Assembly (NCBI GenBank): GCA_030765235.1
Contig: JAVCCW010000020.1
Location: forward strand, 1-54,030
Source of the DNA: Candidatus Gorgyraea atricola
Lineage (GTDB): Bacteria; Omnitrophota; Gorgyraeia; Gorgyraeales; Gorgyraeaceae
DNA length: 54,030 bases
Reading direction: 5' to 3'
The notes under the pieces are model-generated. The model was not told where the DNA came from. It worked only from the letters and a program-made list of their open reading frames with translations, and made no database searches. Position numbers and translations under genes: made by a program. This document shows positions 3 to 24,901 of this stretch, piece after piece. Each line of letters starts with the position of its first letter. Within the stretch, counting starts at the first letter, position 1.

Positions 3-3000
3 CAGTTTAGCTTTTTCCTTGAATGGACATTAAAGAGAACAGAAGATGATAAGCTTTATGCACCATTTACATATAGTGTTAAGTTTGATGAAGATGCCAA
101 GGAAATAAGGGAAGAGGATAGCAATAAGGAAAAGAATCAGGATGTAAAAGGTACATTGCTCACAGCGCTTAGCGTCCTTGAGTATGATTCTAGAATTAAT
201 GAATTGAATATAAAGAGTAGCTTTAAGTGGTATAGCCCTATAGTAGCATATACCTCTGATGTAATAGAGGATCTATACGAAGCTGGCAGGCTGAATAATC
301 CAGAAGAGCTTGTACTTTCGTACAAGATATTATCACGCCAGCAGGAATTATTCAGTGACTATGAAAAGAAATTTTCAGACTGGGGCAAGAGGAACAAAGA
401 AGACTACGCAAAGTTATTAATTGATATAAAGACGAATATGCAGAGATATATCAAAGACGGTTATTTCCATGTAGAAGACTTCTCAGATAAAGAAAATGCA
501 AAGATAAACGCATTGGCACTGGCCCTTATATCAAAGGAGGATATGGAGGAATTTGGACTGGTGTTAGATGGTTCACGTTTAGATCTGGCATCTCTTTACT
601 TCTTAGACTGGCTTGACAGAAATAGAGCAGAATCAACAGATACATGTGACTGGGTATTAAGAAAGGTGAATAAGAAAACAGGTCTCCCTGAAAATAATAG
701 CTTAGACGGCTATGCTAGTCTGGAACAAATAGCCTATCACGCTTTTGGTTTTATGGAAAACACTGATCTCAAGTCCTTGAAGCGTATGTTTGATGCTCTT
801 CAGGAATGGGGCTTTATCAGGGATTCTAAAGGCGAAATTACTGTAAATGGATTGTATGATAGTTATTCTGTTGCAACAGGCTTTCCACGTCACGGAGCAG
901 GCATATTAACACGCAGTCAAGCGCTTTTAGGCATAGCATTATTGAGCTATGATTCACTTGAGGAATATCCTGATTTATTGCATGAGATAGTAAAAGGGGT
1001 AACAGGTGCTATTTCCATGGAGAAAGGTAAGGTGGGTGCCAAGAGAGACCAGACAAAGGAATCGGGTTTGAATTTAGTGGATAATATTGTGACTTATAGG
1101 TTTCTTGTTGATCTAAGGGATTTTTATAAAAGGACTGGACATGACTATTTAGCAGACCCCATCTCCGATGCAATTAATCCTATCAGGACATACTTAGAGA
1201 GACAGTCTTACGGAGGAGAGTTTAGATATGATTCTAAAGATGATGATTCTCTTATATCTGGATTAGGTATCAATGGATTTGTCATGGAGATGCTTGGCAG
1301 AGATGGGTTAAAAGACATAGGTTTCAGCAAAGATAAGATCAAGTCTATAGAAAAAACGATCAAGGTTGCAGATGGAGTTACAGATAAAGATCTATTAAGA
1401 CAGTTTATGTTGAGGCGCTGGGCCATGGAAAACGAGAAGACAGAAGAGCTTGAGGAAAAATTAAAAGAGAGGCCATGGGCAAAGTGGAGAGATTATATAC
1501 ACTGGACAGTGATAATACTATGCGCCTTTGTTCCTGTAGCCTTGCACTGGCTGCGTCCATTCAAGCACCTGGGGACCATGTTTAATTGGCTTAAAGATAA
1601 GCTTAAAGGTTTATTTAAGAGCAAGAAGAAAACAGATGAGAAAGAAGCAGAATTAGAGGAAGAAGACGAGCCTAAGGCAAAGGATTTTCAGCTTAAACGT
1701 ATGAGCGAAAAGGCAAGTGGATCTATAGCTGTAGAAGAATTTAAGCAATGGAAAACGTCTCTAGAGGAAAATCTAGAGGAAAAAGAAGAGATTGCTCGAG
1801 AAGATATCATGAGTAAGATAGATGAGCTTATGGTTTCCCATGGCCTTACCAGGTCTCCTCCTGAAATAGTCGGTTTTTACAGAGCCTGTCTTAGTGAATG
1901 CCCTGGGCAATTAGTAGATTTTTCTGATGAGTTGAATAGTAAGACAGGCGATGAGGAGAAGTTCGGAGTAATTGAAGCGTTAAAAGAATTAGAAACAGAC
2001 CTTAAGGAACCCGCCTTTGTTCTAACAAAAGCCCATATTAAAAAACTTGGTGAAAAATTTAAGCTCGATGAAGATGCTGTCGACAAGGAGCTTATCAAGG
2101 ATAACTATGCGTTCGAGTTTATCCTAAAGCCTATTGCTGTTGAGGCAGTCTATAGAGGTACCATAGAAAAGGTGTTTGAGGATACAGGTTATAAAGATAA
2201 AGACGAGCCAATGGATAAAAAAGACATGGAGTTTGTTGTGCGTCCGACACTGCAGAAGATAAGAGAGCGCCTATTTACAGATTACATATTAGAAGATCAA
2301 AAGGCAGATGATTTTAAAGACTTAGAGAAGAATGAAAAAGACGGACTCTGCATGGTTACAGCAGGTACTGAAGAGGTCGTGGATGGAAAATATCATACAG
2401 TTCCTCTTGAGGACTACATTATACATAAGATCGTAGCAAGGAATATTGGGCCACTTGCTACCAGGACGATTGAAGGCTGGCTGGCAAAGGATATGAAAGA
2501 GATGCTTACCAAAAAGGCAAAAGGACCTGAGGTGGTCAGGCAGTGGTTAGAGAAAAATATTTATATGTTCACTGAACTTATGCAGTCAGGGATAATTAAG
2601 TACAGGTGGTCGAATAACCCTCATGGTCCTGGAGGAGGGTCCTGGTTCTGTTTTGATGAAGAAGAGGTGGATGATTTCTTCAGGTATAACTTATTTGGGG
2701 ATGTCAGGACTAAGGATGGAATAGGATTTAATGATAAGGAGGTTACTACAAAGCAGCTTAGAAAACTTGGGATCAAGGAAAAACTGGATGAACTGAGAAA
2801 GTTAAGTGAAGAGGCTAAAGGTAGGGAAGGGGAAAGTTACTTCCTGAACCTGTTTAATCAAAAGCTTAAGAGGTTTGGCCTGCTTGATGCATGGCAAGGA
2901 AAAGGGAAAGACAAGCTCACAGTCTTTGACTACATGACAATAATTACAGCAGGGTATGATGCAATGGCAGTAGCAGGCGGACAAGACAAAGAAAAAGAGA

Positions 3001-6000
3001 TCTTTGGCTGGGCAAATCCAAGGAAATCAGAAGCAGGTTACCTCCTTATTACAAAGGGATATGGCGAAAAGGGGCATTTCCTTGATGAATTTATTATAAA
3101 GAAGTTTGACTTTGAAGGGACCATAGAAAAAGCGATTAAGGAAGAATATAAGGAAGACCCCTTTAAAGGAGAGGTAATAGCAAAGAATCTGCATGGCGTA
3201 AGGGGCATGCTAAAGATACTGTGGCTACCTGTAAGGGATCTATTGCCTGGCATTATAGGTGTGGCCTTGCTTTCACTTTTGGTTGTAAATTTTGGAACTG
3301 TACCAGAATTGGTCAAATTTATTTTAGGAATAGGTTCTATTGTAAGCTTGATCTGGCAGTCTAAATACAAGAAATATTTCTTTACAAAAGGTTTGCGCTC
3401 AAAGCCGAAACAGGAGCGTTTCTGGATGTGGATGTCAGGTATATGGCTTGTTTCTGCAGCAAGCATGTTTAAACTAGGTGTTGTTGCTACAGTAGCTACT
3501 CTATTTTCTAATGGAACAGTCATGGGTCCTGTAATTGGAAGCGTGTTGGCTCTAAATCTTATACTTGCACAGATATTAATATTCCCAGCCATAGTGCAGA
3601 TATTTGGACAGACCATACCTAACTGGTGGCATGACAGGCAAGACAATCTCTCAGTAATCAAGTCAGATGAGCAGCTGTACAAGGAAAAGGCAACATGGTT
3701 TGGTTTTTCTCGTTCAATGACAGAGGAATTATGGAAGAAGTGTGAGAAATTATGGAAGGAGCATAAGGATGATACTCCTGAGGAGTTAAAGAAAAAGAAG
3801 CAGGAGTTAAAGGAAAAGAAGCTTAGCTGGAACCTCATGATCGCAGGCATGTCTCCTTTAACTGATATGACAGATAGCAAGAGATACGAGATATATGAAG
3901 AAGAGATGATGAGTCTTATGCTTTTGACTGAGGGCGGTTTTGACTACTTTAAAGGCAAGGATTCTGACTATAAGATTGAGAGGTTGATTGAAATATCAGC
4001 GTCAGAGGAGAAGGCTGAAGAAGCTATAACTATAGAGTACTTAGGGAAAAAGCAATGGCGCAATGCCCTAAAGAAGCTAGTTACTAGAGATTCAAAGACT
4101 GTAATAAAGAACTGGGCAAATAATCTACTCATGCACAATCCGTCAGAGAAGCTAGATTTTCCAATAATGCCTTCATTGACAGTCTATATCCCAACAGGCG
4201 GAGAGCCTGTAGAATACACATATACAAAGAAGAGCGGGGATGAAAAGATAGGAAAAGACCAGGCTATAGCTGAAGTACCAAAACAAAGTTTTGATACCTT
4301 GCTGCACTTTATAAAGAAGGGGTTTAAGGATCGCACTGATGGAAAGGAAGAGGCTGCTGCTGCATGGGAGATTATGATAGAGAGTCTTACAGCTAGATTT
4401 CCAAAGGATAGCCATAAGCAAGAATATTATTTTATCACTGATGTCCTGGCAAAGATACAAGAAGGCATTAGCCTTCCTCAGTGGAGAGAGGTTGAAGGCG
4501 AGGACAGAGGCTATATCACGACTAGACGCGGGAGATATGGGATTTCCCATGATAGCTGGAGAGAGATAGAATTTACGCTTAAGGATTTTATCCATTATGT
4601 CAGTCCTTATTCTGCATATAGTGCAATGACAGGCATGAATATCAAAAAGGCAGCAGAAGAAGATGCCAGGAGGTATTACAAGAAGCGTGGTGGAGAATCT
4701 GATAATGCCTATAACCAGAGGATCAAGGCACTTGTAGATGAAAAGGTGCAGATAGTCTATAAGTATGACGGTTATGTGTATAACTTTGCCACTGAGAAAT
4801 ACAGGTATGTAGATGCCTTACAGGCCATAGGCATTGAACTATCACCTGAAGAGCGCGAAGAGATAATGCTTAAGAAGCCAGTTGAGAAGTCAAGAGACGA
4901 TTCATTCGTGAAGTTCGTAGAGAATGTAAATTCAGGTCAAGGTTCAATCTTAGAAAAGGATCTTAGTAAAAAGATAGAAGAAAAGCTCGGTAAATTTAAT
5001 GCTGATGAGGCAAAGGTTCTACGCGGGAAACTGTATTTCATAAGACCTATTGAACAGCCCAAGGTTAATGATACTTCAGTTGGTAAAACCATGGCTGATG
5101 GCGGCAAGCTGATTGTTGAAGAAGAGCAACAAAAAGAATGGAAAGAGACTTATGACAAGAACATAACTAGCCTATTAACTGGTGAAGCAGCGTCTGTTAC
5201 CAAGGTTATCGAGGATTATAATATTGACTTTTTCTGGGAAGGTACACATTCGCAGGATGAGTTAGTGGATGTAGGCAAATACTATACCACCTCTGTCAAT
5301 GAATATAGGTTTAAAGGCGACCTTAAGTTTATATATGATAATGATATGAGGGTGCGCATGGAAGATGCGCGAAGCCTTCTCCGTGTAATTTCTAAATTCA
5401 GAGATGAAGCAAGTCTTGGCATATTGGGCTTTCCGCAGTATAGCCTTACAGGAAAGGCCAGTGATTCAGAGGATAATATAACCTTTGCAGAAGAGGCATG
5501 GACAGGTGAGGTGCAGAGATGGGGTGCCAGGCAAGGCCTTTTCAGACAGTGCGGAAAGTGTATTGAGCGCCAGGAGTATTTAGATAATTATGAGTCATTG
5601 CAATCAGGATATGTTGCAGAGGATTCAGCAGGCGGATATGCTCTTGCGCGCTTTGGCATAACCACGGATTATACGTCAGAATTCTGGCTCGGGACGCAGT
5701 TTGGCCAGACATTCAGGCAGTGGTCAGGGACAACCGGCTATAAATTCTGCATGGATTCAGCTGAGCTGGCACAGAGAAAGTCAATGCGTTACTTCTGGAT
5801 GTCAGATAAGGTACATTGGTCTGATAAGGTCACAGCAATGTTCCAGACAAGCTTTTACTGGCTAAAGCCTGTTAAGCTGGCATACAATCTAAGCTTTGTA
5901 TTTCTATACTGGCTGATGGGCATAAATCCCTTTGTAGTTATGCCTACTATATTGCTTATCGGGAGCTTTTTGTTCCTGGGATATATGTGGAGCCAATCAA

Positions 6001-15000: not shown

Positions 15001-18000
15001 AATTTCGTCCAGATATTATTATAGATCGTTTTGAAAAGACCTGCGAAGGTGATAGTGATAAGGGCTATAAAGTTACATATACATTGAAGGTTAGAAATCA
15101 GTATGAAGAAAAGAAAGAAATGGTAGCAGGGATATTAGATATATTTAATTCAAATGGTAAGAGTAATATTTCTTGCAAGTTTGAAAATGATAAGGAAATT
15201 GGAATTGGAGATATTGCTGTTTTAGTTGTTGAAGGGCATAGGTCGCGAGATGAGATAATTGAGTGCGCTGAACAGATCGCCAGCGTTCTTAGACAGATAG
15301 AGCATGGAAGAGTCTCTACTGTAGGTAAGGATATCAAGGTACGTTTACACCTTAAGCATTACAATAATGCCATGTGTATGGAATACGCGCGACGCCTTTC
15401 TTTGATTATAGCAGTAGGAAGTTTTGAGCTTAGTCAGGAAGAGCTAAAACAGGTGCGGAGAATCATGAAAGCAACAGGCCTTTACCGCGCACGTTATGCA
15501 TCTGGTCGTCATGCGCGTCCTGAAATAGACCCTGTAGATTTCCTTGAATGGTTATGTTCGACTGATGGATTTGGCAGTAGGTACTATTTTAGTTCTCATT
15601 ATGATAAAGATATACATAAAGTCATTAAAGATTTAATAAAGAAAGAGCCATTTGTCTATCACCTGCTCCTAAACGACTATTTTTCACCAAATACAGTATC
15701 TTTTACAGCTAGGTATAAAGCGCAGTATGAATATATAAAAGAGATATTGTTGCCATTAATGAGGGCCAAAAGAAAGAGGGAGAGCGATAAGCCCTTAAGG
15801 ATAAAGATAGCAGATCTTGGGTGTTCTGATGGTCGTGTGCTTGCCCGTGTAGGGGCCACTATACATGAAGACATGGACGACAACTATTATGTGTTGGGAA
15901 GTGTGTTTCCGCCGTTTTTGCATCTTGGAATGAACGTTGGATTAGAGATGATAGGAGCTGATATAAGTTCGTCTTCTATATCTAGCGGGAAAAATCAGTT
16001 AACTGACTGGGAAGTAGTATTAAATGAAATGTATACTGACAGAAGCTACGAAATGACTCCTAGAAAAGATCTACAGGGGTACGAGTATAACCATACGATT
16101 GACGGTCATAACAAAGAAGACATGAAAGAAGTAGATTATATAAATTCTAATCTTTCGGGCAATGATCTCACGAGTATTAGACACGCAATAAGCTTGGTCC
16201 AAGGCTCTGTTATTGATAAGAAGATATTAAGGCGTGTGATTGACTCTGACATTATACTGATCAATTCTATGATGTATCTTTTGACGCCAGAGGCGCGCGA
16301 GAAATTATGGAAGTTTATAAGAGATAATGTAAGCCCTGATACACATATACTATGCGCAATAGCAGATGAGAAATTTTGGATGAAAGACGGTTCTTTAATA
16401 GAGAGTCGAGAATTTGTAGAGAGCCTTACACAGGATTTTGATTTCGCTTATCTTAGTGATGAGAACGAAAAAATAACTTATGGCAAACCGCTCATGGTTG
16501 TATTAATGAAAAAGCCTGTTAGTGTTACCAAAGCAGAGAAGCAGAAGAAAAAATATTCTCTAGCCGGCGGTCGCATTCCAATCTTAACTGCTCTTCTCAA
16601 GAAGTTGCATCTTGATTATGACTGGCTGCAGACGTTTATTGAGCAGGGTATTTTTGTGGGTCTTGCCCTGTACTTGGCTGGGTCTGTGGGATTAGGGGGC
16701 TTTGGCATATTATTGAGCTTTGCAATGTTCTTTGGCGCACATGTCCTACCAACAAAGCATGCGCCGCCTGCTAATAAATGGCATGCTGGCATCGTTGCAC
16801 TCCTCAATGTTGCAATACTAATGTTAGGTCTGAGCTTTGTGCCAGCAATGGCTATTACTATACCTATGCACCTGCTGGCAAATAAAGCATTTGATAAATT
16901 CGCTGAGCCGAAAAAGGCGACATTATTCTATCACTTGGCAAATAGATATAATCAGTTACGAATAGGTGATTGTGTCGAAATAATCAAGCATGACTTTAAG
17001 TTGGGCGATAGTGACGAGTCTATGATAACTAAATTGATGGAAGATTTTAGTAAATTAGATATAGATATCGAAGATTTTGACGAAGATCATGGAAATAAAT
17101 TAAGGATTTGGAAGACTAATGATAAAGATATAGAGTTTAATCTATATCATGTGAAAGATTTTATGTACTCAAAGATAGATAAGACAAAACCTTTAGTTCT
17201 TATTAAACAAAAAGGCGGCCTAGGGACTTGGTTAGCCGAGATCTTAAAAAAGATTTCCGGCCTTGCCCCCGCAAGCAAAGTCTTCCTGGCCGCCTTTACT
17301 ATATTTATTTATAGGTTAATGGTAGGAGGATTAGTTTTAGATAATGCAGCTTTAGCGAGTATATTAGAAGGCGCAACAGGATTAATTGCTATAGGAGTGA
17401 TAAATGCGGGAGAAAAATCCACTGAAGATCTTAATCATTTCAACTTATCAGAGAAACATTTTGAAGAATATTGGAATAAAACAGAAGTAACATTTAATGC
17501 TAAGATGAAAGAGTATTTTAATCTTGAACCAAAGGCAGCGAAGAGGATTATTGAGAATACTTTTGTAAAAAATAAGAGGTTTATAGTAGTTCCATTTGCT
17601 AATAATCGAGGCTTTTCTTTATATGGCTTGGATCTTTGCTTGGATGTAAAAAATCAGCAAAAAAAGATTTTCTTATTAAACGTAGGCACTGATGTAACAG
17701 CCCCTTACAGAGATAAGATGATCTTATCTCTAAAGAACATTCCTGTTAATACCTTTTCTACTAATATTATGAGGAGTATTGTCTCTTCTGAAAAAGCTCC
17801 TGTTAGTCGTGAGATTTCTACTCTTATCTCCAGATACCTGCAGGGAAAGGATAAACAGGTTTATATCTCTAGTAACAATATTTATTTCGTAACTTATGTA
17901 GAAGGAAAAGCATGTGTTGTAAGACAGAGAAAATGGAGCGGCAAAGGAGAATCACATCTTATTCAGGGTAAAGATAGCATAAAAACAACTTTGAAGATGT

Positions 18001-20039
18001 TAAAGCGCAGTTCTTCAAATGTCTGGGAAGTTAAACTTAATCCCTTACCATCTTATACGTTTAAGTTAATCCAACACAAGAAAGGTCAGGATAAGAGTAA
18101 AATCGTTAATATGCCTACATTTCAACAGGCATGCAGGTTAACTCCTTGGCAAAAATATATAAAGGCTATTAAAGCAGAAGCCAAAAAAGGTTCAAACCCA
18201 GGTTTTAAAGTTAATTTTCCGGAGTGGGATTTCATAGTTGATATAGTAAAGTTAGCCAAAAAGCGTATCTCAAGGTTGATGCCTCTTTCTAGGTTGGCAT
18301 TTAGATATTTTAAGGGTGGGATAGCAAATAGGATCAAGATTTTAAGAATAGGCCGTTATTCGAAAACATTAAACATAGATTCTCCAACATTTACACCAGG
18401 ACACATACCACCTGTTAAATATTTAAGCTTATTAAAGAAAGATTTAGTAAAGCTGTCAACTGTTATTAGAGTTAAAACCAAAGATGACTCTATAGCACAA
18501 ACTGATATAGAAGCGATTTTAAAAACCTTAGAGACAAGGATGCTTCTTGCTAAGATTTATACCTGGGCGATCCCAGGCCTTTCGGCTTTGGCTCTAGTAT
18601 CTTTTAGCGCCTCGTTATATGTATTTTTTATAGCACTAAGCGCCTACCTTGCAATAAAGATGTGTAATTTTGGACTTAAGCTCTACGATTCTATCTTTAA
18701 TGGTCAACCCATGTCCAAATTCAAAAAGTCACTCAGTATAAATAAAATACCTTTCATTGCCAGATTTTCTGCAATAGTCACTATCATACCCGCTATTGCT
18801 GTGTATGGCATGACAGAGCTTAATCCTGTGCAGGTTAATGCAATAGCTGTAGCTGCTATATTTTTCGGTATCATGTCCCTTATGCTAAAAGCGATAAGAG
18901 TATTATTATATACTCCGCTCAGGTCTATAACAGGTATCCCTGAAAAGGTTTTAATCGGCATTGGAATAATTAGCGGAATTGCGCATATCTCAGGGGTTAT
19001 GCATGTTGGTATTGCTATGGTAGCTGTCGGCGCAATAGGCCTTTTCTTTTTGAAATTAAAACAGACGAAAGTTCTTTCTGCCCGCCTCACTACTTTTATC
19101 AACTCTATATTGATTGCCGCAGGTGGTTACATTACCGCCTTTGGGATCCCATTATTTATAAGAAAAATGTTTGTATCAGCTATGCCTAGCGAAACGCACA
19201 CTCAGACCCTGGCATTGCTTACACCGATGATGTTGTTTTGTAGCACCCAAGTGAAAATAGTGAAAGAAAAGGTCAAACAAGTCATTGAAAAGGTGAAGAA
19301 TATTAAAAAGTTGAAAGAGAAAATAGAAGAATTTGGGCGTATAGGGATGCTAATGGTTGTTCTCAGCGGTGCTTTTTATTCGCTTTCTAACTTTATTGGT
19401 AATAATTTTGGCGACAACATAGTTGCTTCTCTTGTGAAGAATATAAGTATGCTGGGTGCAGCAGGGGCTGTGGGTATGTGGCGAAACCTGCAATGGGAAA
19501 TTAAAATATTAGAGAAAGAAACAACTTTTAACTGGGGTAGATTCTGGAGAAATTTAGGATTATGGAGTCTATTTGCTATGCTGTTTGGCACGATATGGCA
19601 TGATAATGTCCTTGAACTGTTATCAAAGGGCTTAATTGGACAGGTAGCATTGGACCAACTTCTATTAGCCCCATTCTTTAATGCACCCCTAACTTACATT
19701 CTTGGTAAAAAGTTTGTTGAAAAAAATTCATGGAAAGACTCATGGGAAAATTTAAAGAAGTATTGGATCCCGTTTTATATACTGTTCACAAGCTATTGGG
19801 TTTCTATTGTAACGGTTGCCAGGGCTCTTGGACCTAAGTATGCGTTTGCAGTATGCGCTACCTTTTCTATACCATGGGCATTTATCCTAGCACGTATCTA
19901 TTATGAATATAAACCAGTCTTGCTTGATAAGATATCCGAGCGCATTGATAAGGTTAAACAAAAATTAGGAATAGATACATTAAGTCTAAAGGTTCAGGCG
20001 CTGACACAGAGAAGTAGAATCATCGGCAGATGCCTCTGA
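3..20039 (+). CDS. giant multi-domain membrane protein, 5' end outside window (glycosyltransferase-like)
   Basis: The frame is open from the first bases of the window to TGA at 20037, so at least 6,678 codons are present and the start lies upstream. Residue n begins at base 3n. Visible order: a helical, possibly alpha/alpha-toroid region (residues about 215-475); a hydrophobic segment (about 502-518) and a charged linker; membrane segments (about 1080-1205); a glycosyltransferase-like region (about 1385-1930) followed by many membrane segments to about 2320; a long coiled coil (about 2690-2850); a YdcF/DUF218-like domain (about 3017-3133); more coiled coil; two related membrane-plus-soluble modules (about 3810-4206); a methyltransferase-like domain (about 5235-5505); and a membrane-rich C-terminus. 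It is probably an inner-membrane protein making or modifying a polysaccharide, inferred from the GT-like region and the downstream genes. Base composition is more AT-rich than the genes after 28 kb. The length is exceptional, and no frameshift is seen. Confidence 0.9.
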   Translation, partial: QFSFFLEWTLKRTEDDKLYAPFTYSVKFDEDAKEIREEDSNKEKNQDVKGTLLTALSVLEYDSRINELNIKSSFKWYSPIVAYTSDVIEDLYEAGRLNNPEELVLSYKILSRQQELFSDYEKKFSDWGKRNKEDYAKLLIDIKTNMQRYIKDGYFHVEDFSDKENAKINALALALISKEDMEEFGLVLDGSRLDLASLYFLDWLDRNRAESTDTCDWVLRKVNKKTGLPENNSLDGYASLEQIAYHAFGFMENTDLKSLKRMFDALQEWGFIRDSKGEITVNGLYDSYSVATGFPRHGAGILTRSQALLGIALLSYDSLEEYPDLLHEIVKGVTGAISMEKGKVGAKRDQTKESGLNLVDNIVTYRFLVDLRDFYKRTGHDYLADPISDAINPIRTYLERQSYGGEFRYDSKDDDSLISGLGINGFVMEMLGRDGLKDIGFSKDKIKSIEKTIKVADGVTDKDLLRQFMLRRWAMENEKTEELEEKLKERPWAKWRDYIHWTVIILCAFVPVALHWLRPFKHLGTMFNWLKDKLKGLFKSKKKTDEKEAELEEEDEPKAKDFQLKRMSEKASGSIAVEEFKQWKTSLEENLEEKEEIAREDIMSKIDELMVSHGLTRSPPEIVGFYRACLSECPGQLVDFSDELNSKTGDEEKFGVIEALKELETDLKEPAFVLTKAHIKKLGEKFKLDEDAVDKELIKDNYAFEFILKPIAVEAVYRGTIEKVFEDTGYKDKDEPMDKKDMEFVVRPTLQKIRERLFTDYILEDQKADDFKDLEKNEKDGLCMVTAGTEEVVDGKYHTVPLEDYIIHKIVARNIGPLATRTIEGWLAKDMKEMLTKKAKGPEVVRQWLEKNIYMFTELMQSGIIKYRWSNNPHGPGGGSWFCFDEEEVDDFFRYNLFGDVRTKDGIGFNDKEVTTKQLRKLGIKEKLDELRKLSEEAKGREGESYFLNLFNQKLKRFGLLDAWQGKGKDKLTVFDYMTIITAGYDAMAVAGGQDKEKEIFGWANPRKSEAGYLLITKGYGEKGHFLDEFIIKKFDFEGTIEKAIKEEYKEDPFKGEVIAKNLHGVRGMLKILWLPVRDLLPGIIGVALLSLLVVNFGTVPELVKFILGIGSIVSLIWQSKYKKYFFTKGLRSKPKQERFWMWMSGIWLVSAASMFKLGVVATVATLFSNGTVMGPVIGSVLALNLILAQILIFPAIVQIFGQTIPNWWHDRQDNLSVIKSDEQLYKEKATWFGFSRSMTEELWKKCEKLWKEHKDDTPEELKKKKQELKEKKLSWNLMIAGMSPLTDMTDSKRYEIYEEEMMSLMLLTEGGFDYFKGKDSDYKIERLIEISASEEKAEEAITIEYLGKKQWRNALKKLVTRDSKTVIKNWANNLLMHNPSEKLDFPIMPSLTVYIPTGGEPVEYTYTKKSGDEKIGKDQAIAEVPKQSFDTLLHFIKKGFKDRTDGKEEAAAAWEIMIESLTARFPKDSHKQEYYFITDVLAKIQEGISLPQWREVEGEDRGYITTRRGRYGISHDSWREIEFTLKDFIHYVSPYSAYSAMTGMNIKKAAEEDARRYYKKRGGESDNAYNQRIKALVDEKVQIVYKYDGYVYNFATEKYRYVDALQAIGIELSPEEREEIMLKKPVEKSRDDSFVKFVENVNSGQGSILEKDLSKKIEEKLGKFNADEAKVLRGKLYFIRPIEQPKVNDTSVGKTMADGGKLIVEEEQQKEWKETYDKNITSLLTGEAASVTKVIEDYNIDFFWEGTHSQDELVDVGKYYTTSVNEYRFKGDLKFIYDNDMRVRMEDARSLLRVISKFRDEASLGILGFPQYSLTGKASDSEDNITFAEEAWTGEVQRWGARQGLFRQCGKCIERQEYLDNYESLQSGYVAEDSAGGYALARFGITTDYTSEFWLGTQFGQTFRQWSGTTGYKFCMDSAELAQRKSMRYFWMSDKVHWSDKVTAMFQTSFYWLKPVKLAYNLSFVFLYWLMGINPFVVMPTILLIGSFLFLGYMWSQSSLSVGMRSKIKQLGVKKGIEYVLGSTKQLKAALATGIATIAFYSSGIQLPVIMGSSLSSLIPFIGIAFTIVFALGGFKNFFKKSLFFISLIPVYFQAMMREGLSRHVFFALTSETGDDRITKEPEESIFERHKFGMKAGLFFFIAFMLVSFHPWKLLATLPALLFLLAQFFGPYYYNSVSLSRNRKWYAIKWGFISMWWLVVGTHRTKARIVERIEKSREMGDTSVLERHELLSELWQSISEEERRSYLKKAREKGSKNIYYRARNMCFDHYKKVSHKGWSRFTKAFIVMVLVMTYYFSAPLLAVTLVKVFLATAAVSKIIEIFMAKNPDPNTYLFHGWSADRRKQTSEIRDLRYLTFFEEIDILSKRTSIHRKFNELNRDFLIPAKTLEKIDELEKDLKEAERTDGTKALTEKYNNIYIDKAKRELETVDMAYVPRLLGTIAKVKAQMVELTEKELNAEELEKAFHKSINSLYFSHSYGQRVLPAIMWSLPDVESAVEFCDKLRKLLNRAMDIGTLSEFMGTTLDGVESNINNKNKSIDFKDISEFRNYLAKLKEHVKHSSEVERKEDKLYERQDNVNRARYWARFMKVITPFIIAGFALSPVTTGLFVGGALISYILARKAKAILISELWKWNKTAWIAFTVLSVFSPASGLLVICALVLASLLIGIFKIADILIGKDARLNFKKLLILSKLSLVRSDLNTYRARLSKDKKAAVKKAQEHEESLEAAEKDRDKKESEFKQQKEKLDIQERNVKNLEEKLAMDSTDQLLYARLELEKSNLELGRISLEAAKEAFEGQKALVKVIKEPAAMQSQEIVSDIKRRRTKLDSASERIMESQDTVEGQLDGSYTFSETRHRGDLMYRGRHATIKQAEELFKQSTRFFLKIVIWLHRPASAFKMVFYDAKIALYESSKRFPFVPYIATGLVFFVTLVSSVYKTLRRTKNFVRSFAIKGRLERSRQAIEQRLQKVFSFLAEQDYDLSSEELIYSKEKKLLDAQGKTQKRKEAVAAQRKKMGLPAGILVIFGNEDIGSIREAARLIKNDIARSALVTGGKGNAWKPLLRNARNAGYLPSLDPKAGETEDKTKAGKTEAEVIAWILKQEGVPEEKIEILKSTSEEKFIDTKKTADFLKKYLEERAMQQQARIEAMKEEIKKAREIYNIKNEKLQSAGHKLKLQNERTMSAKKEHGLVMLKVNKIEGEIEQLKVQNADSQVLEQKHKELGKAKSYLGDIEKQEKLEKGKKVECQNKFDQLENEANLALQEVNNKVKKVDALKSKILQRADELKKLEEGKDKKDEAAKLRLEIEKEKIYDSIIVIQESLRTKRTKLTIKESFDDEITKDRIKFISYAPYIPDFSKMSNEGISDSIVISKEEFENFDKYGPDGKRHMKQCKIPEDVRKAREDLDRMQYIQILKEASKDISKKDLPREKDKEKITKSDIDKMVSKFEEDLLKGKVVLMGDKDGDPAAQVKIILDYKGEIKEKIFQIHKVLLDRLIDARTRQSESYETYKEILKALLIKECGHYTTSSDYDLIRIAHLKRQFMENPNDKDAAKNFTSIQLSYEFEKYSWIIDYLKKKDITAEGLEELAGIENKRYEKDKKKLLADMMPELKSKRQETEIENKVKELLSPKVYEFLPDLMCGLATFMKRYEEHKYLAVAEDLAQGRGHGKDAIALALKDDVFKNSLMGESKIVSFKDGQDPDDIKAYLRDHYSSVHVPQREKTFGEALLPDEQGRIRKAVDWFRNKSMSKSKKELIFGPVNSAKPPPATEVIEPEIEDKGEPEPGKIEDKGEPEPGTPLKQKFKWIKKLQQFVKLNNLNCLGLLFILPIKKALSFAPTTSDPSLLWPVVIVGGIGLLLGIIFSLNSSAKKQLIKKHNTALVNCYCDLPNYASLFQINLSGKKIFRSFDAKNARNWPKQINVAHVKGWGIPGKLYLISPLKKTEDESMETCLNAVKRMFEAVKSKEQILDAILNGDEEITIIIIAPDGTQKKIKIDNISKLNKGNTSKFRTKLLSKAKVVTAATLALLLAPTLLNAATKISIIQSSLLLPLGIIAGLGLIISIIFLRPSYKPTKEQIDTYNRKILRKYISKQLKEHPHISTPFSVNLKKGKPPVVDCPTGESGMKIIDQCIVGMYIEGNKGNKINLMLPLKETEQELLTIAQKAARRILEAKKFWSIEFRPNDQVIVIMITKDGELKTFKKKLSELAEDTEKQHLAPYELAQWADRFFIAALVGFVGLALGHAEIHYLFEIIIGGLSIASLIKSFSLLIKAISFKYTLEHSSNNGVFWGITKSVRGCSTDRLLYYLCKIEWLVKMSNSLLKKKDIEDVDIARDLLPEIKNQISNEEAVFEEIISDRDAKQIAYCHESDGKIHYMARKVHGTLIPVIAQYPKRLQYEVYYKELKQKLTGSEFKFHLMAILFARFKFKNRDSSSKKVPETIFVPYFKQHDVKFEEKALEALGAQVAKEMRYAILIVRQLNIILPKKEEQKAAFTEKDAKELIQRIKAEFIEQMLKELKNGPTKKTSLFALNKEITSIEEVCKKLNISDSWSDYFHEYALKVIDYFENNTAVDFSYSKDYISPLYEAILLNRNSGLIMAARLIKKLIEKKGRDSHFSDDVLIEQCIRLAIFEEIEKAITESEVEEQKLIIKGISSVMGDRELPMTILLTIAKELTSLVKDNNAHKKDKILSFFFRDTLRHERKVLRTNTLITLATIVFFPLFFVGLLASGVSLLFVNREWKSKDIDEKIVSLLAYLIEEQNSNVQSGKIIGGIDEKEIKRGADLKDIIKSKDRKIVRKIVLLGRFLTQPVWSEPSKRALVINRWAPWLFISEGFAQYCALSASYYNYFYNTTEEKERINKYLIAVEAAHFAFSRTKKLRSIPFTFIYITHKSLIALAKTLKDGFKKRANNMFHLTISAPVSYSVLALSPMFLEMDPVLALVLRIVGFIGLVAPFLMTIIKPNELMYDVNHDVVVDNADGLDERGIDRLLGKLRPEAGKEVKFSLSRKRKFRPDIIIDRFEKTCEGDSDKGYKVTYTLKVRNQYEEKKEMVAGILDIFNSNGKSNISCKFENDKEIGIGDIAVLVVEGHRSRDEIIECAEQIASVLRQIEHGRVSTVGKDIKVRLHLKHYNNAMCMEYARRLSLIIAVGSFELSQEELKQVRRIMKATGLYRARYASGRHARPEIDPVDFLEWLCSTDGFGSRYYFSSHYDKDIHKVIKDLIKKEPFVYHLLLNDYFSPNTVSFTARYKAQYEYIKEILLPLMRAKRKRESDKPLRIKIADLGCSDGRVLARVGATIHEDMDDNYYVLGSVFPPFLHLGMNVGLEMIGADISSSSISSGKNQLTDWEVVLNEMYTDRSYEMTPRKDLQGYEYNHTIDGHNKEDMKEVDYINSNLSGNDLTSIRHAISLVQGSVIDKKILRRVIDSDIILINSMMYLLTPEAREKLWKFIRDNVSPDTHILCAIADEKFWMKDGSLIESREFVESLTQDFDFAYLSDENEKITYGKPLMVVLMKKPVSVTKAEKQKKKYSLAGGRIPILTALLKKLHLDYDWLQTFIEQGIFVGLALYLAGSVGLGGFGILLSFAMFFGAHVLPTKHAPPANKWHAGIVALLNVAILMLGLSFVPAMAITIPMHLLANKAFDKFAEPKKATLFYHLANRYNQLRIGDCVEIIKHDFKLGDSDESMITKLMEDFSKLDIDIEDFDEDHGNKLRIWKTNDKDIEFNLYHVKDFMYSKIDKTKPLVLIKQKGGLGTWLAEILKKISGLAPASKVFLAAFTIFIYRLMVGGLVLDNAALASILEGATGLIAIGVINAGEKSTEDLNHFNLSEKHFEEYWNKTEVTFNAKMKEYFNLEPKAAKRIIENTFVKNKRFIVVPFANNRGFSLYGLDLCLDVKNQQKKIFLLNVGTDVTAPYRDKMILSLKNIPVNTFSTNIMRSIVSSEKAPVSREISTLISRYLQGKDKQVYISSNNIYFVTYVEGKACVVRQRKWSGKGESHLIQGKDSIKTTLKMLKRSSSNVWEVKLNPLPSYTFKLIQHKKGQDKSKIVNMPTFQQACRLTPWQKYIKAIKAEAKKGSNPGFKVNFPEWDFIVDIVKLAKKRISRLMPLSRLAFRYFKGGIANRIKILRIGRYSKTLNIDSPTFTPGHIPPVKYLSLLKKDLVKLSTVIRVKTKDDSIAQTDIEAILKTLETRMLLAKIYTWAIPGLSALALVSFSASLYVFFIALSAYLAIKMCNFGLKLYDSIFNGQPMSKFKKSLSINKIPFIARFSAIVTIIPAIAVYGMTELNPVQVNAIAVAAIFFGIMSLMLKAIRVLLYTPLRSITGIPEKVLIGIGIISGIAHISGVMHVGIAMVAVGAIGLFFLKLKQTKVLSARLTTFINSILIAAGGYITAFGIPLFIRKMFVSAMPSETHTQTLALLTPMMLFCSTQVKIVKEKVKQVIEKVKNIKKLKEKIEEFGRIGMLMVVLSGAFYSLSNFIGNNFGDNIVASLVKNISMLGAAGAVGMWRNLQWEIKILEKETTFNWGRFWRNLGLWSLFAMLFGTIWHDNVLELLSKGLIGQVALDQLLLAPFFNAPLTYILGKKFVEKNSWKDSWENLKKYWIPFYILFTSYWVSIVTVARALGPKYAFAVCATFSIPWAFILARIYYEYKPVLLDKISERIDKVKQKLGIDTLSLKVQALTQRSRIIGRCL
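4155..6000 (+). other. glycosyltransferase-like domain within the giant protein (GT48/GT2-like motif order)
   Basis: The domain begins with MPSLTVYIPTGGEPVEY (M1389), the form of the first beta strand of inverting GT-A enzymes and close to the PTFTVLVPHYGE stretch of fungal 1,3-beta-glucan synthases. It continues with YSAMTGMN, then KFIYDNDMRVRMEDAR, SLGILGFPQYSLTG, and AEDSAGG with E1873-D1874 in the place of the conserved ED pair. A QTFRQW stretch resembling QxxRW comes next, and then the membrane segments. The order and spacing match a processive synthase with a cytosolic GT domain next to transmembrane helices. The assignment is by eye; family GT48 versus a divergent GT2 is not settled, and the donor sugar is unknown. 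Confidence 0.5.
9050..9400 (+). other. YdcF/DUF218-like domain inside the giant protein
   Basis: Residues about 3017-3133 read as a Rossmann-like beta strand (GILVIFGNED), a helix REAARLIKN, then ALVTGGKGN, a KTEAEV helix, the stretch GVPEEKIEIL, and a polar segment before FIDTKKTADF. This follows the pattern of DUF218 proteins (YdcF, SanA, ElyC): a strand, SGG-type loop, sEA helix, GVP..I.xE and an nTxEN-like segment. Members act in envelope or sugar-related processes, but few have known reactions. It sits between two coiled coils and follows a membrane segment. The last motif is degenerate, so activity is uncertain. Confidence 0.5.
11311..11376 (+). repeat. 33-bp tandem repeat encoding an acidic Pro-Gly linker
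   Basis: Two adjacent 33-bp units (11311-11343 and 11344-11376) differ at one base and encode EIEDKGEPEPG then KIEDKGEPEPG. They form a charged, flexible linker just before the membrane module that starts near 11430. Unit length is a multiple of three, so copy number can change without frameshift. Confidence 0.85.
11430..12620 (+). repeat. internal duplication of a membrane-plus-soluble module in the giant protein
   Basis: Two consecutive blocks of about 195 residues share a layout. Each has two hydrophobic segments, a Lys-rich turn with a conserved helix (KKHNTALVNCY versus TYNRKILRKYI), a strand with PLKKTEDESMETCLNAVKRMFEA versus PLKETEQELLTIAQKAARRILEA, and an end of EITIIIIAPDGTQKKIK versus QVIVIMITKDGELKTFK followed by a SKL/SEL helix. 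The blocks span about 11430-12010 and 12030-12620. I do not recognise the family. It looks like an old duplication, because protein similarity is moderate. Confidence 0.6.
15700..16520 (+). other. SAM-dependent methyltransferase-like domain inside the giant protein
   Basis: Residues about 5235-5505 contain IKIADLGCSDGRVLARVGA (D5271 to G5277), the glycine-rich SAM-binding motif I of class I methyltransferases. The strand ending in acidic MIGADISSSSI matches motif II. A later SDIILINSMMYLL strand and a PLMVVLMKKP strand fit the rest of the fold. The insert between motif II and the later strands is large. The substrate is unknown. Within a glycosyltransferase-like protein it could modify glycan ends, which is speculation. 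Confidence 0.5.
17211..17297 (+). repeat. imperfect GC-rich palindromic element in frame inside the giant gene
   Basis: AAAGGCGGCC at 17211-17220 is the exact reverse complement of GGCCGCCTTT at 17288-17297. Pairing continues inward with gaps, and two smaller hairpins lie inside (GATCTT/AAGAT and CTTGC/GCAAG). The block is much richer in G and C than the surrounding gene and is read through in frame. Confidence 0.55.
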
Positions 20040-20101: not shown

Positions 20102-20135
20102 TAATAGAACGATAGAACCAAAAAGGAGGTGAGTG

Positions 20136-20471
20136 ATGAGGACAGGTGAATTTGCAGAGAAGAGGGAATTTAAAAGACTGGATCTATCTCTTCCTACGAC
20201 ACTCAAGGGTCTTTCCGGAGATGAGAAGCAGCGCGAGCAAGAGGGAGTTACTCTTAATATTAGTTATAATGGGGCATATGTAGCAGATATAGAGATAAAG
20301 AATATAAAGTCTAATGATACATTGAAGATCTCTATTTCAGTGCCAAGAGACGAATCAAGAGATTTCCCATTTTCCCGCGTTGTAGGAAAGGCAAAAGTGA
20401 TACGCGTTGATAAGGAAGGCGTTGCACTTGAGTTTGCAGAGGATGTAAACCGTCTTTTTATTGCTAATTGA
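20136..20471 (+). CDS. PilZ-domain c-di-GMP-binding protein
   Basis: This small protein of 111 residues is a single PilZ domain. The c-di-GMP-binding signatures are present: RxxxR as R10-E-F-K-R14, and N41-x-S43-x-x-G46 (NISYNG), followed by the beta-strand-rich barrel. PilZ proteins or domains switch on cellulose and alginate synthases when c-di-GMP is high. Here the protein sits directly after a giant glycosyltransferase-like gene and before envelope glycan genes, so activation of the synthase is the natural guess. The ATG at 20136 is preferred because AGGAGG at 20124-20129 lies 6 nt upstream; a GTG at 20133 is too close. No signal peptide, so it is cytosolic. Confidence 0.85.
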   Translation: MRTGEFAEKREFKRLDLSLPTTLKGLSGDEKQREQEGVTLNISYNGAYVADIEIKNIKSNDTLKISISVPRDESRDFPFSRVVGKAKVIRVDKEGVALEFAEDVNRLFIAN

Positions 20472-20513: not shown

Positions 20514-22838
20514 GTGAATTATCTTCATAAGAAAGGTCATCTTTTTTTTATAGCTTGTTCGTTCATCGTTTTTTTAAGTGTTGTTTTACTATCCACTATC
20601 CACTATCCGCTATACGCTGCAGAAGAGAATCTATCTCCCAAGGATCTAATAGTCCGCGCGTGGGAGGCATGGGGCGCAAAGGATCATAAAAGCGTCTTTT
20701 ATTATACAGATAAGTGCATAGAGTTATATTCTGAAGATGCAAGAGCGCAGCAGACCTCTTTAACAGGTTTTCCTGCTACAGAGGCCATAGACCAGTATGA
20801 TGCGCTCAATGCTGTTGGCACAAGTCTTTTTATACAGGGCGAGGCCTATCTTACTCAGGGAAAGATAGGTGAGGCAAAAGAGATCTTTGTCAGGGCAATA
20901 GAGGGTTATGGCTATGCGCAAAACTGGGATCCGCGCGGATGGTTTTGGAGCGTGAAAGAAAAGTCAGAGGCAAGTCTTGAAAAGTTAGAGCAGAAAGAAG
21001 AAGTCAAGGCAGTCCCTGAAATAATAAGACCAAAGACAAAGATCACCCTTCACGATCAAGGAAAAGAATTCCCTATAGATTACAGCAAATACGGGTATTT
21101 TAAAGGAATCGGTACGAATAAGTATAGATATGTGGCAAAGGACCCAGAGGGTCTTGCAGAGGCAGCAGGAGAGGGCGTGTATCCAAATACCTCAGGTATT
21201 ACATGGGACCCACGCTATCGCGAGGTTAAAGAAGAAGGCAGGTTAGAAGGTAATCATTGGGATTTTGTAAATACAGATGACTTGGAGGCAAATTTTTATA
21301 GATGGACGCAGGCAGCAGAGCCAATGGGCGTGCGCATGTTTTATGCAGCTATGGCGCTTGAGAATTCAGGCCTTCTCGAGCATGCAATAAAGGCTTATTA
21401 TTCTATAGTTGTACATTTTCCAAAGGCGATTGGCTGGACGTATTTTCATACACCATGGTATATAGCACAGGTGGCTATTGACAGGATAGATTATCTATTG
21501 AGGCATAATCCTGATCTAAAGGCAGAGCTGCATGGGGCAAAGATATTTGTTGAGAATGGTTTTGATGATGACATTACAAATGATAAATTTTTTATTAATC
21601 CTGGCAGACTCTCTAAAATGAATTTTTTTGATAGCATAAAGAACAGCTTGTTTAAAAATAGACCTGTGAAGACAGGTATGGTTGTGGAACAGAGGGGTGA
21701 CGGAAGAGTAGATCTTGTAAAATATAAAAATGGGCATTGGCAGCTAAGGGTAGAGGGTAGACCTTATATAGTAAAAGGAGTTGCTTATGATCCCAATAAA
21801 ATCGGCCAGAGTCCTGACGAGGGCACTCTCGCTGATTGGATGCAGGCAGACTATAATAATAATGGTAGGATAGATGCGCCTTATGACAGCTGGGTGGATA
21901 AAAATTTCAATAATACTCAGGACGCAGATGAAGAGACTATAGGAGATTTTGGATTACTAAAAGAAATGGGAGCCAACACTATTAGAATCTATCATCACGC
22001 CTCTAATAAAGAGCTTCTAAAGGACTTATATGATAACTATGGCATAATGTCTATCATGGGCGATTTATTAGGCGCGTATACTGTGGGTTCTGGTGCGAGT
22101 TGGTATGAAGGCACAGACTATGAAAATCCAGAACACAGAGAGACTATGAAGAAAGGCGTAAGACAAATGGTTGAAGAGTTTAAAGACGAGCCATACGTTC
22201 TTTTCTGGATGCTTGGCAATGAGAATAATTATGGTGTCGCGAACAATGCCAAGAAAAAGCCAGATGCCTATTACACGTTCGTAAATGAAATTGCAAATAT
22301 GATAAGGTCAATAGATAGGGACCATCCTGTTGCCGTGTGTAGTGGGGATTTATTCTTTCTAGATAAATTTGCTGAATTTGCACCAGATGTAGACATATAT
22401 GGCTCTAATGCATACAGGGGAAGACATGGTTTTGGCAGGAGTTTTTGGGGAAATATGCAGGAGGTATGCGATAAACCTATAATAATTACCGAATATGGAT
22501 GTCCGAGTTATATGCAGGGAAGATCAAGAGAACATGTAGAGGAAAAACAGGCTGAATATTTAAGGGGTAACTGGGAAGATATTCTTTATAATTCAGCAGG
22601 ACACAGGGGTATTGGAAATTCAATAGGCGGCGTGCTTTTCGAATGGTTGGATGAATGGTGGAAGGCGTATGAGCCTATGTTGCATGATACAACAAGAAAC
22701 TGGTCAGGCCCGTTTCCAGACGGATGGAATTATGAGGAGTGGCTTGGAGTGGCTGGCCAGGGAGATGGTAAAAGCAGTCCATTCTTGAGACAGCTTAAAA
22801 AGGCATATTTTGTCTATCAGGAGATGTGGACGGAATGA
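20514..22838 (+). CDS. secreted TPR-like plus clan GH-A glycoside hydrolase/transglycosylase (GH72/GH2-like)
   Basis: A 774-residue protein with a GTG start (AAGGAGGA at 20503) and a Sec signal peptide ending near LYAAEE. Residues about 40-180 form TPR-like helices; a second helical region follows (about 260-340). The catalytic TIM barrel covers about 410-774, beginning RPYIVKGVAYDPNKIGQ and passing through GANTIRIYHH. The acid/base glutamate is E570 in MLGNENN and the nucleophile is E660 in ITEYGCPSY. The Trp-rich tail (EWLDEWWK) is kept. The GNE and TEYGC segments and the IKGVAY-type start match fungal GH72 1,3-beta-glucanosyltransferases as well as GH2 barrels. Likely job: trimming or remodelling an exported glycan in the periplasm. 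It lies 42 nt after the PilZ gene. Confidence 0.75.
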   Translation: MNYLHKKGHLFFIACSFIVFLSVVLLSTIHYPLYAAEENLSPKDLIVRAWEAWGAKDHKSVFYYTDKCIELYSEDARAQQTSLTGFPATEAIDQYDALNAVGTSLFIQGEAYLTQGKIGEAKEIFVRAIEGYGYAQNWDPRGWFWSVKEKSEASLEKLEQKEEVKAVPEIIRPKTKITLHDQGKEFPIDYSKYGYFKGIGTNKYRYVAKDPEGLAEAAGEGVYPNTSGITWDPRYREVKEEGRLEGNHWDFVNTDDLEANFYRWTQAAEPMGVRMFYAAMALENSGLLEHAIKAYYSIVVHFPKAIGWTYFHTPWYIAQVAIDRIDYLLRHNPDLKAELHGAKIFVENGFDDDITNDKFFINPGRLSKMNFFDSIKNSLFKNRPVKTGMVVEQRGDGRVDLVKYKNGHWQLRVEGRPYIVKGVAYDPNKIGQSPDEGTLADWMQADYNNNGRIDAPYDSWVDKNFNNTQDADEETIGDFGLLKEMGANTIRIYHHASNKELLKDLYDNYGIMSIMGDLLGAYTVGSGASWYEGTDYENPEHRETMKKGVRQMVEEFKDEPYVLFWMLGNENNYGVANNAKKKPDAYYTFVNEIANMIRSIDRDHPVAVCSGDLFFLDKFAEFAPDVDIYGSNAYRGRHGFGRSFWGNMQEVCDKPIIITEYGCPSYMQGRSREHVEEKQAEYLRGNWEDILYNSAGHRGIGNSIGGVLFEWLDEWWKAYEPMLHDTTRNWSGPFPDGWNYEEWLGVAGQGDGKSSPFLRQLKKAYFVYQEMWTE
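20588..20615 (+). repeat. 7-bp tandem repeat in a signal-peptide coding region
   Basis: Three perfect ACTATCC units (20588-20608) and a degenerate fourth (GCTATAC) lie in the part of the GH-A gene encoding the end of the signal peptide. Seven is not a multiple of three, so loss or gain of one unit would shift the frame. Confidence 0.8.
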
Positions 22839-22920: not shown

Positions 22921-23613
22921 ATGAGGAAAAGTTTAAGTTTAACATTTTTGGTAATAGCGGGATTGATGCTTTTTAGCATAGCAAGCTGTGGTGGTTCTAA
23001 CGACAGAGAGCAGTATGCGCAGACGGACGACTACTCTTATGACTATGAAGAAGATGTATATGATACGTATGAAGAAACAGAGAGTGCTGTAACCAGCTTT
23101 AATGTGTTTCCTGTTTATACTGATGGCAGGTCACCTGACAATCATTACATCCCTTCAGGATACATGGGAGATTATTCTGATGTGAGCATTGATATATCTT
23201 CTTTTGAGAATCCTCATGCTGGTTCTACATGCATAAAGATAGTTTATTCCAATGCCTCGAGTCAGGGTGCGAGATGGGCAGGCGTACAATGGCAGAATCC
23301 AGCTAATAACTGGGGTGACAGGCAGGGGGGTTTTGACCTTACCGGCGCTACAAGACTTACGTTCTGGGCAAGAGGTGGACAGGGCGGAGAGAGGATAGAA
23401 GAGTTTAAGCTCGGCGGCATAACAGGACTTTATCCTGACTCAGACATAGCAGGTATTGGTCCTGTACTTTTGACCAATGAGTGGAAGCAGTATGAGATAG
23501 ACCTTAGAGGAAAAGACCTTAGCTATATCAGCGGAGGATTTGCCTGGGCAACTAATGTCGATGTAAATCCAGAAGGAGCAACGTTTTATCTGGATGATTT
23601 AAGGTACGAATAA
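22921..23613 (+). CDS. outer-membrane lipoprotein with carbohydrate-binding-like beta-sandwich
   Basis: A 230-residue protein with AAGGAGG 6 nt before its ATG. The signal peptide ends in a lipobox (SIASC), so C23 should be lipidated; glycine at +2 favours the outer membrane. A Tyr/Asp/Glu-rich spacer (residues about 30-60) leads to a domain of about 170 residues with WAGVQWQNPANNWGD, LTFWARGGQGGE, WKQYEIDLRGKDLS and a final ATFYLDDLRYE. This is the pattern of galactose-binding-fold carbohydrate modules (CBM30/CBM11/CIA30-like). It may hold the glycan at the cell surface or guide it to the barrel protein encoded downstream. The exact CBM family and ligand are not determined. Confidence 0.65.
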   Translation: MRKSLSLTFLVIAGLMLFSIASCGGSNDREQYAQTDDYSYDYEEDVYDTYEETESAVTSFNVFPVYTDGRSPDNHYIPSGYMGDYSDVSIDISSFENPHAGSTCIKIVYSNASSQGARWAGVQWQNPANNWGDRQGGFDLTGATRLTFWARGGQGGERIEEFKLGGITGLYPDSDIAGIGPVLLTNEWKQYEIDLRGKDLSYISGGFAWATNVDVNPEGATFYLDDLRYE

Positions 23614-23692: not shown

Positions 23693-24901
23693 ATGAAAAA
23701 GATCATTATATCTATAATCTGCGTAGCAGTAGTGGCTTTACTGACCTTTGTTATTTTTTCTAATTTTGGCGGGCTGCAGAAGGTTTATATAAAAAGCCTG
23801 GAAAGTAACCGCTTTCAGTTAATGATAGGCGACCAGCCCTATATAGTTAAAGGTATGGTGTATAGCCCTGTGCCTGTAGGCCAAAATCATGCCTATAATT
23901 TCTGGGCTGACCCTGAAAAGCCGCATCTTTATGATGGTAAGCTCATGAAGGCAATGGGCGTAAATACCATAAGGGTCTACCAGCCTGGCCAGGATGCGCT
24001 AAAGACAAAACAGGTCATGAGAGATCTTTACAATAAGTTTAGGATCCGTGTAGCAATGGGCCACTGGCTTGGTTTTTGGGATGATGCAAATTACGCGGAT
24101 CTTGGTTTTCGTGAAAAGGTAAAAAGGGATGTCATCGAGATGGTAGAGACATATAAAGATGAGAAGGGTATTTTATGCTGGATCCTTGGGAACGAGAATA
24201 ACGTATCTTTTTCTTATGGGCCGCAGACATTGAATCTTTGGACTACTGCTGAGATAGAGGCGCTCGAGGATCCTTATCTAAAGAGACAGGCACGCGCAAA
24301 GATCTATTATTCCTTTGTGAATGAGGTCGCAAAAGAGATCCACAAGGTGGATCCAAATCATCCTGTGCTATTGGCAAATGCAGAGCTTACTGATATAGAT
24401 GTGGCTAGCGAGGTCACTCCAGATATTGATATCTTAGGGTGTTCAATATACAGAGGAAAGGCATTTGGGAGTTTCTTTAGAGAGGCAAGCATGAAGTTTA
24501 AGAGGCCTGTTCTTATAACAGAGTTTGGCTGCGATAGGTATAATGCGTTTTTAAGAGAAGAGGACCAGGGTATTCAGGCAGAGTTTATAGAGGCAGAGTG
24601 GAATGAAATAGAAAAAAATACCCATGAAGGTACTGGAGTCGGAAATTGCCTAGGTGGTTTTGTATTTGAATGGACAGATGAATGGTGGAAGTATAATGAG
24701 GAGAGCAAAACTGGCTGGTATGTTCATGATACTGTTAGCAGCTGGTCTAACGGCGCATACTATTTTGACATAAAGGCGCCGCAGAATTTTAACATAAATG
24801 AGGAGTGGTGGGGCGTGTGCGCTATGGAAAAACGCGATGGCAAGCTTGACGAACGCAGACCCACTAAGGCATACTTTAAGCTAAAGGAGCTATGGAGATA
24901 A
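23693..24901 (+). CDS. membrane-anchored clan GH-A glycoside hydrolase/transglycosylase (GH72/GH2-like)
   Basis: A 402-residue protein. An N-terminal hydrophobic segment (residues 3-24) should act as a signal anchor, placing the enzyme in the periplasm. The TIM barrel starts QPYIVKGMVYSPVPVGQ, passes through GVNTIRVYQP, and has acid/base E168 in ILGNENN and nucleophile E277 in ITEFGCDRY. The tail FEWTDEWWK and a final WWGVCAMEK segment match the first GH-A protein, so the two are paralogues; this one lacks the TPR-like N-terminal part. The GNE plus TE[YF]GC pair, including the Cys, is like GH72 glucanosyltransferases. A ribosome site (AAGGTG at 23680) precedes the ATG. It overlaps the next gene by 10 nt. 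Confidence 0.75.
   Translation: MKKIIISIICVAVVALLTFVIFSNFGGLQKVYIKSLESNRFQLMIGDQPYIVKGMVYSPVPVGQNHAYNFWADPEKPHLYDGKLMKAMGVNTIRVYQPGQDALKTKQVMRDLYNKFRIRVAMGHWLGFWDDANYADLGFREKVKRDVIEMVETYKDEKGILCWILGNENNVSFSYGPQTLNLWTTAEIEALEDPYLKRQARAKIYYSFVNEVAKEIHKVDPNHPVLLANAELTDIDVASEVTPDIDILGCSIYRGKAFGSFFREASMKFKRPVLITEFGCDRYNAFLREEDQGIQAEFIEAEWNEIEKNTHEGTGVGNCLGGFVFEWTDEWWKYNEESKTGWYVHDTVSSWSNGAYYFDIKAPQNFNINEEWWGVCAMEKRDGKLDERRPTKAYFKLKELWR

Follow-up and report, generated by a model that had tools for sequence, protein, structure and literature searches.

Gene content and layout of the window

The window analysed here, a stretch of 54,030 nucleotides from Candidatus Gorgyraea atricola (Omnitrophota), is a complete contig of a 1.74-Mb MAG with a completeness of 97.6%. 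It begins on the plus strand with a giant ORF (3..20039; 6,678 aa) that runs for 6,678 codons without a stop and whose 5' end is absent; because the frame is open at the first base of the contig, the N-terminus of the protein is missing and all residue numbers are relative. The codon-position GC of the giant is like that of coding DNA along its full length, and a hydropathy scan predicted 31 transmembrane (TM)-like segments. A direct Pfam scan of the giant gave no match of note, a direct search gave no PDB match by sequence, and beyond the synthase region described below, comparison with relatives yielded at most two very weak matches. Two further stretches resemble known motifs by eye, each with no Pfam match: IADLGCSDGR from residue 5269 on (15807-15836) is similar to motif I of SAM-dependent methyltransferases, and LVIFGNEDIGS...VTGGKGN from residue 3020 on (about 9060-9170) is similar to a DUF218/ElyC-type domain.

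All other genes considered here are also encoded on the plus strand. The giant is followed by a gene for a 112-aa PilZ-domain protein (20133..20471; PF07238, 28.5 bits), the GH-A protein A of 774 aa (20514..22838), a small putative lipoprotein of 230 aa (22921..23613; recognised as a lipoprotein by eye, and kept beside A and B in relatives), and the GH-A protein B of 402 aa, which carries an N-terminal hydrophobic helix (23693..24901). Next are a 914-aa protein with TPR and a putative outer-membrane beta-barrel (24892..27636; TPR_2 below cut-off, barrel assigned by eye), a 412-aa ROK-family regulator (27655..28893; PF00480, 123 bits), and TolC-like, HlyD-like and two RND (AcrB-like) genes (29143..38891). 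The original prediction had placed the giant beside two GH-A enzymes; both indeed lie downstream of it, with the PilZ gene inserted between the giant and protein A.

A GT48-like core in the giant protein

The motifs that had been reported for the giant, in the order seen in fungal 1,3-beta-glucan synthase, were all recovered (PSLTVYIPTGGE at residue 1390, ILGFPQYSLTG at 1807 and AEDSAGG at 1872). The Pfam GT48 model (PF02364) found nothing above cut-off in the window protein or in the window's own genome, and the predicted GT48-like nature of this region was borne out through relatives rather than through any direct Pfam or PDB sequence match. When the window core was used as query, relatives were found in 43 of the 384 genomes of the phylum, most of them in very long frames (up to 57,756 aa). 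PF02364 itself scored above cut-off in 32 of 384 sampled Omnitrophota genomes, usually in giant ORFs; the highest score at a single place was 296 bits, and a genome (G004) from the same GTDB family as the window gave 96.8 bits. For one relative (L038), a single-sequence search matched chains of yeast Gsc2/Fks1 only, with E=1.5e-55 to yeast Fks2 over about 590 aa.

A profile of 18 bacterial relatives, built without the window, matched FKS1 with 277.7 bits versus 35.2 bits for BcsA, and matched G004 with an E-value of 2.2e-108. In the whole window genome its sole match was the window core (E=2.3e-12), with 58.7 bits in all from the stretches 1367-1594 and 1753-1970 and with 42.5 bits for the best stretch on the giant. 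Fifty local shuffles of the giant reached at most 2.9 bits and the reversed protein scored -3.0; since these controls lie far lower and the match is the only one in the genome, it is more than a chance resemblance. An alignment of the window and six divergent relatives, compared with the GT48 profile by hhalign, gave a probability of 99.6% (2.4e-24). Against the GT48 profile the window scored 57.2 bits, and against a GT2 profile -3.7. CelA-like GT2 proteins of Omnitrophota reached no more than 21.8 bits with the former, and some divergent relatives do not exceed these GT2 proteins.

The identity between the window core and Fks2 is about 14%. An AlphaFold model of the core (mean pLDDT 58.8, pTM 0.66) was compared with solved structures by Foldseek, where the original prediction would have taken GT48 as the best structural hit for support: Fks1 ranked first (1.6e-7 over 1,132 columns, TM-score 0.43), with BcsA (GT2) close behind by E-value. 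This match is not fully independent of the sequence comparisons, because the alignment behind the model contained GT48 relatives. Judged from the sequence comparisons, the core (residues about 1367-1970; 4101..5912) is a divergent homologue of GT48.

Conserved catalytic residues and predicted TM helices

In the alignment to Fks1, K1759 of the giant (5277..5279) corresponds to the UDP-Glc-binding K1082 and is conserved in 31 of 31 sequences; D1779-N-D (5337..5345) corresponds to D1102-A-N ('DAN'), with the first Asp again in 31/31; and E1873-D1874 (5619..5624) corresponds to the catalytic ED motif E1221-D1222 (Glu in 30 and Asp in 31 of 31). E1401 aligns with E851. The roles of K1082 (UDP-Glc binding), D1102, E1221 and D1222 in Fks1 are described in PMC12715860. 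Y849 and the Arg of GKGR of Fks are not kept in the window core, where G1399 and F1900 take their places; most members of the bacterial GT48 family lack Y849 too. Clusters of TM-like helices, as predicted by the hydropathy scan, flank the core on both sides, with four helices upstream (residues 1072-1198; 3216..3596) and five downstream (residues 1963-2304; 5889..6914).

The core shares with yeast Fks1/Gsc2 (GT48, PF02364) the order of motifs, the catalytic K/D/ED residues and TM-like helices on either side of the GT domain, and Fks1 leads the fold matches of its low-confidence model; it differs in being bacterial, part of a giant polypeptide, very divergent, and unmatched by PF02364. With the GT2 synthases BcsA and CelA it shares the GT-A fold and the membrane architecture, but it is set apart from them by profile and by tree. 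A PilZ protein is encoded beside the giant; PilZ heads an importer cassette in relatives as well (see below).

Distribution and phylogeny of bacterial GT48

Carriers of bacterial GT48 were found among Omnitrophota MAGs, in two Endomicrobiaceae of the Elusimicrobiota (L084, L087), and in one MAG labelled Planctomycetales (L079); this distribution is a lower bound because the scan used strict patterns, and the taxonomic labels of carrier MAGs can be wrong. In an IQ-TREE phylogeny of 225 columns, rooted on GT2 and with yeast Fks2 as the single eukaryotic sequence, the GT48-like rows were separated from GT2 with 99/98 support. Fks2 was placed inside a 22-row clade (100/100), with no firm position among its rows, and many bacterial lineages fell outside that clade. 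A constraint that separated all bacterial rows from Fks2 cost 17 log units (AU p=0.051), so that the nesting of Fks2 in the bacterial family is favoured, not proven.

GT48 has been treated in plants, green algae and fungi in a survey of algal GTs (PMC3797821). Among the papers listed in a literature search, none dealt with GT48 of Omnitrophota or Elusimicrobiota or with any bacterial GT48; in the searched literature GT48 is described only from eukaryotes (fungi, plants, algae), which is not proof of novelty for bacterial GT48.

A GT48 protein of 3,038 aa (L091, genome G033) has a weak GH76-like match N-terminal to its GT48 domain (19.2 bits, below cut-off).

The GH-A proteins A and B

The two proteins are paralogues with 37% identity. 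Protein A consists of an N-terminal part with weak TPR matches followed by a clan GH-A barrel (GH2_C, 46.8 bits). The reported motifs IxKGxxY, GNEN and TE[YF]GC are present in both proteins (A: 419, 568 and 659; B: 51, 166 and 276). The acid/base of protein A lies within GNEN and its nucleophile within TEYGC; in protein B these are E168 and E277, and the equivalents of N167, E168 and E277 are invariant in all 30 aligned sequences.

The best solved relative by sequence is GH158 for both A (2e-12) and B (7.4e-8). A GH-A profile of 30 sequences, compared with solved structures, likewise gave GH158 first (6.7e-19), then GH2 glucuronidases. For the AlphaFold model of protein B (pLDDT 87.6), Foldseek ranked GH158 (3.3e-16) ahead of GH157 (2.5e-14), and no GH72 entry was recognised among its best 50 matches. 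The GH72 model PF03198 remained below cut-off on protein B (20.8 versus 25.9 bits), with no match listed for protein A; it did match 27 of 30 relatives of these proteins (best 3.7e-12), so the GH72 resemblance noted earlier is grounded in the GH-A clan. An ordinary GH72 identity for A and B was rejected, as GH158 leads by sequence profile and by fold.

In the retaining endo-beta-1,3-glucanase BuGH158, N136/E137 form the acid/base pair and E220 is the nucleophile (PMC7157763). The GH-A proteins resemble the endo-beta-1,3-glucanases BuGH158 and LaGH157 in their best sequence and fold matches and in the same catalytic Glu pair; they differ in that they are only about 15-22% identical to them over the fold match. 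To the GH72 Gas/Gel glucanosyltransferases they are linked by the Pfam matches of their relatives and by the IxKGxxY and GNE motifs; unlike those enzymes, the window proteins are below the GH72 cut-off, and GH72 is not among their best solved or structural matches. By sequence and by predicted structure, A and B are nearest to GH158/GH157 beta-1,3-glucanases among solved structures, and they probably constitute a separate GH-A family. The GH72-like label of the original prediction therefore gives way to GH158/GH157, then GH2, as the nearest families, and its guess of beta-1,3-glucan as the substrate survives as a candidate assignment.

A widespread GH-A cassette and GT48/GH-A fusions

The GH-A family was found in 247 of the 384 genomes of the phylum (E<=1e-25). 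In the relatives examined, the usual cassette order is solute-binding protein, two permeases, A, small putative lipoprotein, B, a homologue of the 914-aa protein, and ROK regulator; B is present in most, not all, relatives, and the 914-aa TPR/barrel homologue in some (f1 relatives and a number of others). Pfam identified the importer genes in one relative; in the rest they were assigned from gene size and position. Where the upstream flank is available, f1 relatives have the binding protein and two permeases directly upstream, an arrangement also seen in several other families; the PilZ gene comes before the importer/GH-A cassette in those f1 relatives. The window's own genome lacks the solute-binding protein that many family members have, and the giant therefore appears to sit at the former place of the importer.

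In many relatives the GH-A cassette has sugar-importer genes as neighbours, an indication of uptake. The GH-A genes of the window may form a cassette for oligosaccharide uptake that has no relation to the giant and was juxtaposed to it only by loss of an ABC importer, an explanation to which we give a little less than an even chance; it concerns the pairing only and is compatible with the GT48 reading of the giant. It is consistent with the abundance of the cassette, the upstream importer genes and the missing binding protein, as well as with a tally of co-location: among the matches listed, none of the 27 genomes with both GT48-like and GH-A genes had the two within 50 kb of each other, a count that says little because most of these genomes have broken contigs. 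On the other hand, among ten other giants with an informative (known) downstream flank, two are followed within 20 kb, on the same strand, by GH-A genes, as is the giant of the window.

Fusions, too, speak for the pairing and against independent juxtaposition. GH-A profile matches lie inside seven GT48-bearing frames (G241, G084, G217, G060, G086, G022 and the L085 record; 2.7e-37 to 4.8e-16), with two GH-A domains in the G060 giant. The acid/base and nucleophile Glu residues align in all seven; the acid/base is part of an N-E pair in six, and L085 has R-E. The best solved match of the fused G241 domain is GH158 (1.7e-11). Further GT48/GH-A cases in G257 and G007 are weak.

The co-location of giant and GH-A genes, which the original prediction took as its main signal, is hence partly incidental, since the cassette that holds the GH-A genes is widespread; the pairing as such is backed by the GT48/GH-A fusions and by the two downstream cassettes in other giants.

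In one other genome (G015), a different frame of 2,210 aa, open at the contig edge, is located upstream of the same PilZ/importer/GH-A cassette (L138:2-6634); it has no Pfam match and no similarity to the window giant.

Proposed function and alternatives

The interpretation that we favour by a modest degree is that the giant is an envelope protein with a membrane-embedded, divergent bacterial synthase core of the GT48 type, with GH158/GH157/GH72-like GH-A enzymes as putative partners. In analogy to Fks1, a GT-A domain on the cytosolic side would use UDP-glucose as donor to extend a beta-glucan, most probably with beta-1,3 linkages; the chain would be pushed through the flanking TM helices, and the clan GH-A enzymes, adjacent here and fused elsewhere, may trim or transfer it outside the inner membrane. 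Synthesis of beta-1,3-glucan by the core is thus inferred from the analogy. A combination of synthase and GH-A enzyme in one protein is represented by the Pseudomonas NdvB type, a fusion of GT2 and GH17, i.e. of GT and GH families that differ from those of the giant. The central idea of the original prediction holds in revised form: as judged by homology, the giant contains a GT48-related synthase, and the GH-A proteins are related to beta-1,3-glucanases and have counterparts fused to such synthases elsewhere.

The product might instead be another beta-glycan; the core would then be a membrane synthase of polysaccharides whose GT48 label denotes its descent and not its product. We consider this possible, though clearly less probable than a beta-1,3-glucan synthase; the strong divergence of the window's subfamily and its loss of Y849 and of the GKGR Arg are in line with it, as are the CelA-like GT2 domains of other giants, which maybe serve the same role. 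The Fks1 residues for UDP-Glc binding and catalysis are mostly kept, however, and a fused GH-A domain (G241) resembles beta-1,3-glucanases. The CelA-like GT2 synthase domains in question are located in other Omnitrophota giants (G090, C1:57525-58334, loci L214-L220; G116, C6:21247-22560, L206).

Giant ORFs of Omnitrophota have been described by Seymour et al. 2023 (PMC10066038), and the giant of the window is a membrane protein of this type; in the passages of that paper considered here, annotated domains are few and a glucan synthase is not reported. A device for predation or adhesion that breaks down prey glycans, with an inactive GT-like core, would follow the proposal published there for the giant of V. 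archaeovorus. A GH-A domain is also present, together with a CelA-like GT2 domain, in the G090 giant (a 39,687-codon frame on a 1,974,201-base contig), which fits the 39,678-aa giant of V. archaeovorus LiM and is likened to it by size alone. Such a device is improbable for the window giant: the catalytic residues are nearly invariant across the GT48 family, and the GT48 domains of many giants score >500 bits with the family profile, more than a decayed enzyme would be expected to retain.

That the core is a GT2 (BcsA-like) synthase with a merely generic GT-A similarity to GT48 is very improbable, despite the second rank of BcsA by Foldseek, given the gap in GT48-profile score between the window and CelA-like proteins and the split from GT2 in the tree; Pfam GT2 models miss the giant, yet find five PF13632 places elsewhere in the genome. 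A plain GT2 synthase was rejected for the core on the lack of a Pfam GT2 match, the negative GT2-profile score and the tree separation.

Returning to the favoured reading of the giant as a GT48-type synthase, we tentatively suggest, as a broader and less probable scenario, that Omnitrophota, Elusimicrobiota and possibly Planctomycetota use GT48 giants, some with a remodelling enzyme, to make a beta-1,3-glucan-like surface polymer, and that eukaryotic FKS/callose synthases might descend from within this bacterial family. A deep bacterial GT48 family would bear on the origin of eukaryotic beta-1,3-glucan synthesis. It would also suggest a biosynthetic role for Omnitrophota giants, i.e. making, and perhaps remodelling, a surface glycan; these giants have so far been read mainly as adhesins or cell-wall-degrading weapons.

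Two minor observations concern the transporter genes farther downstream. The reading frame at 29143-30939 has a TonB C-terminal domain ahead of a TolC-like outer membrane protein, and the RND (AcrB-like) transporter at 32152-35703 carries a C-terminal DeoR-type helix-turn-helix stretch; a relative has a protein of similar length to this transporter.
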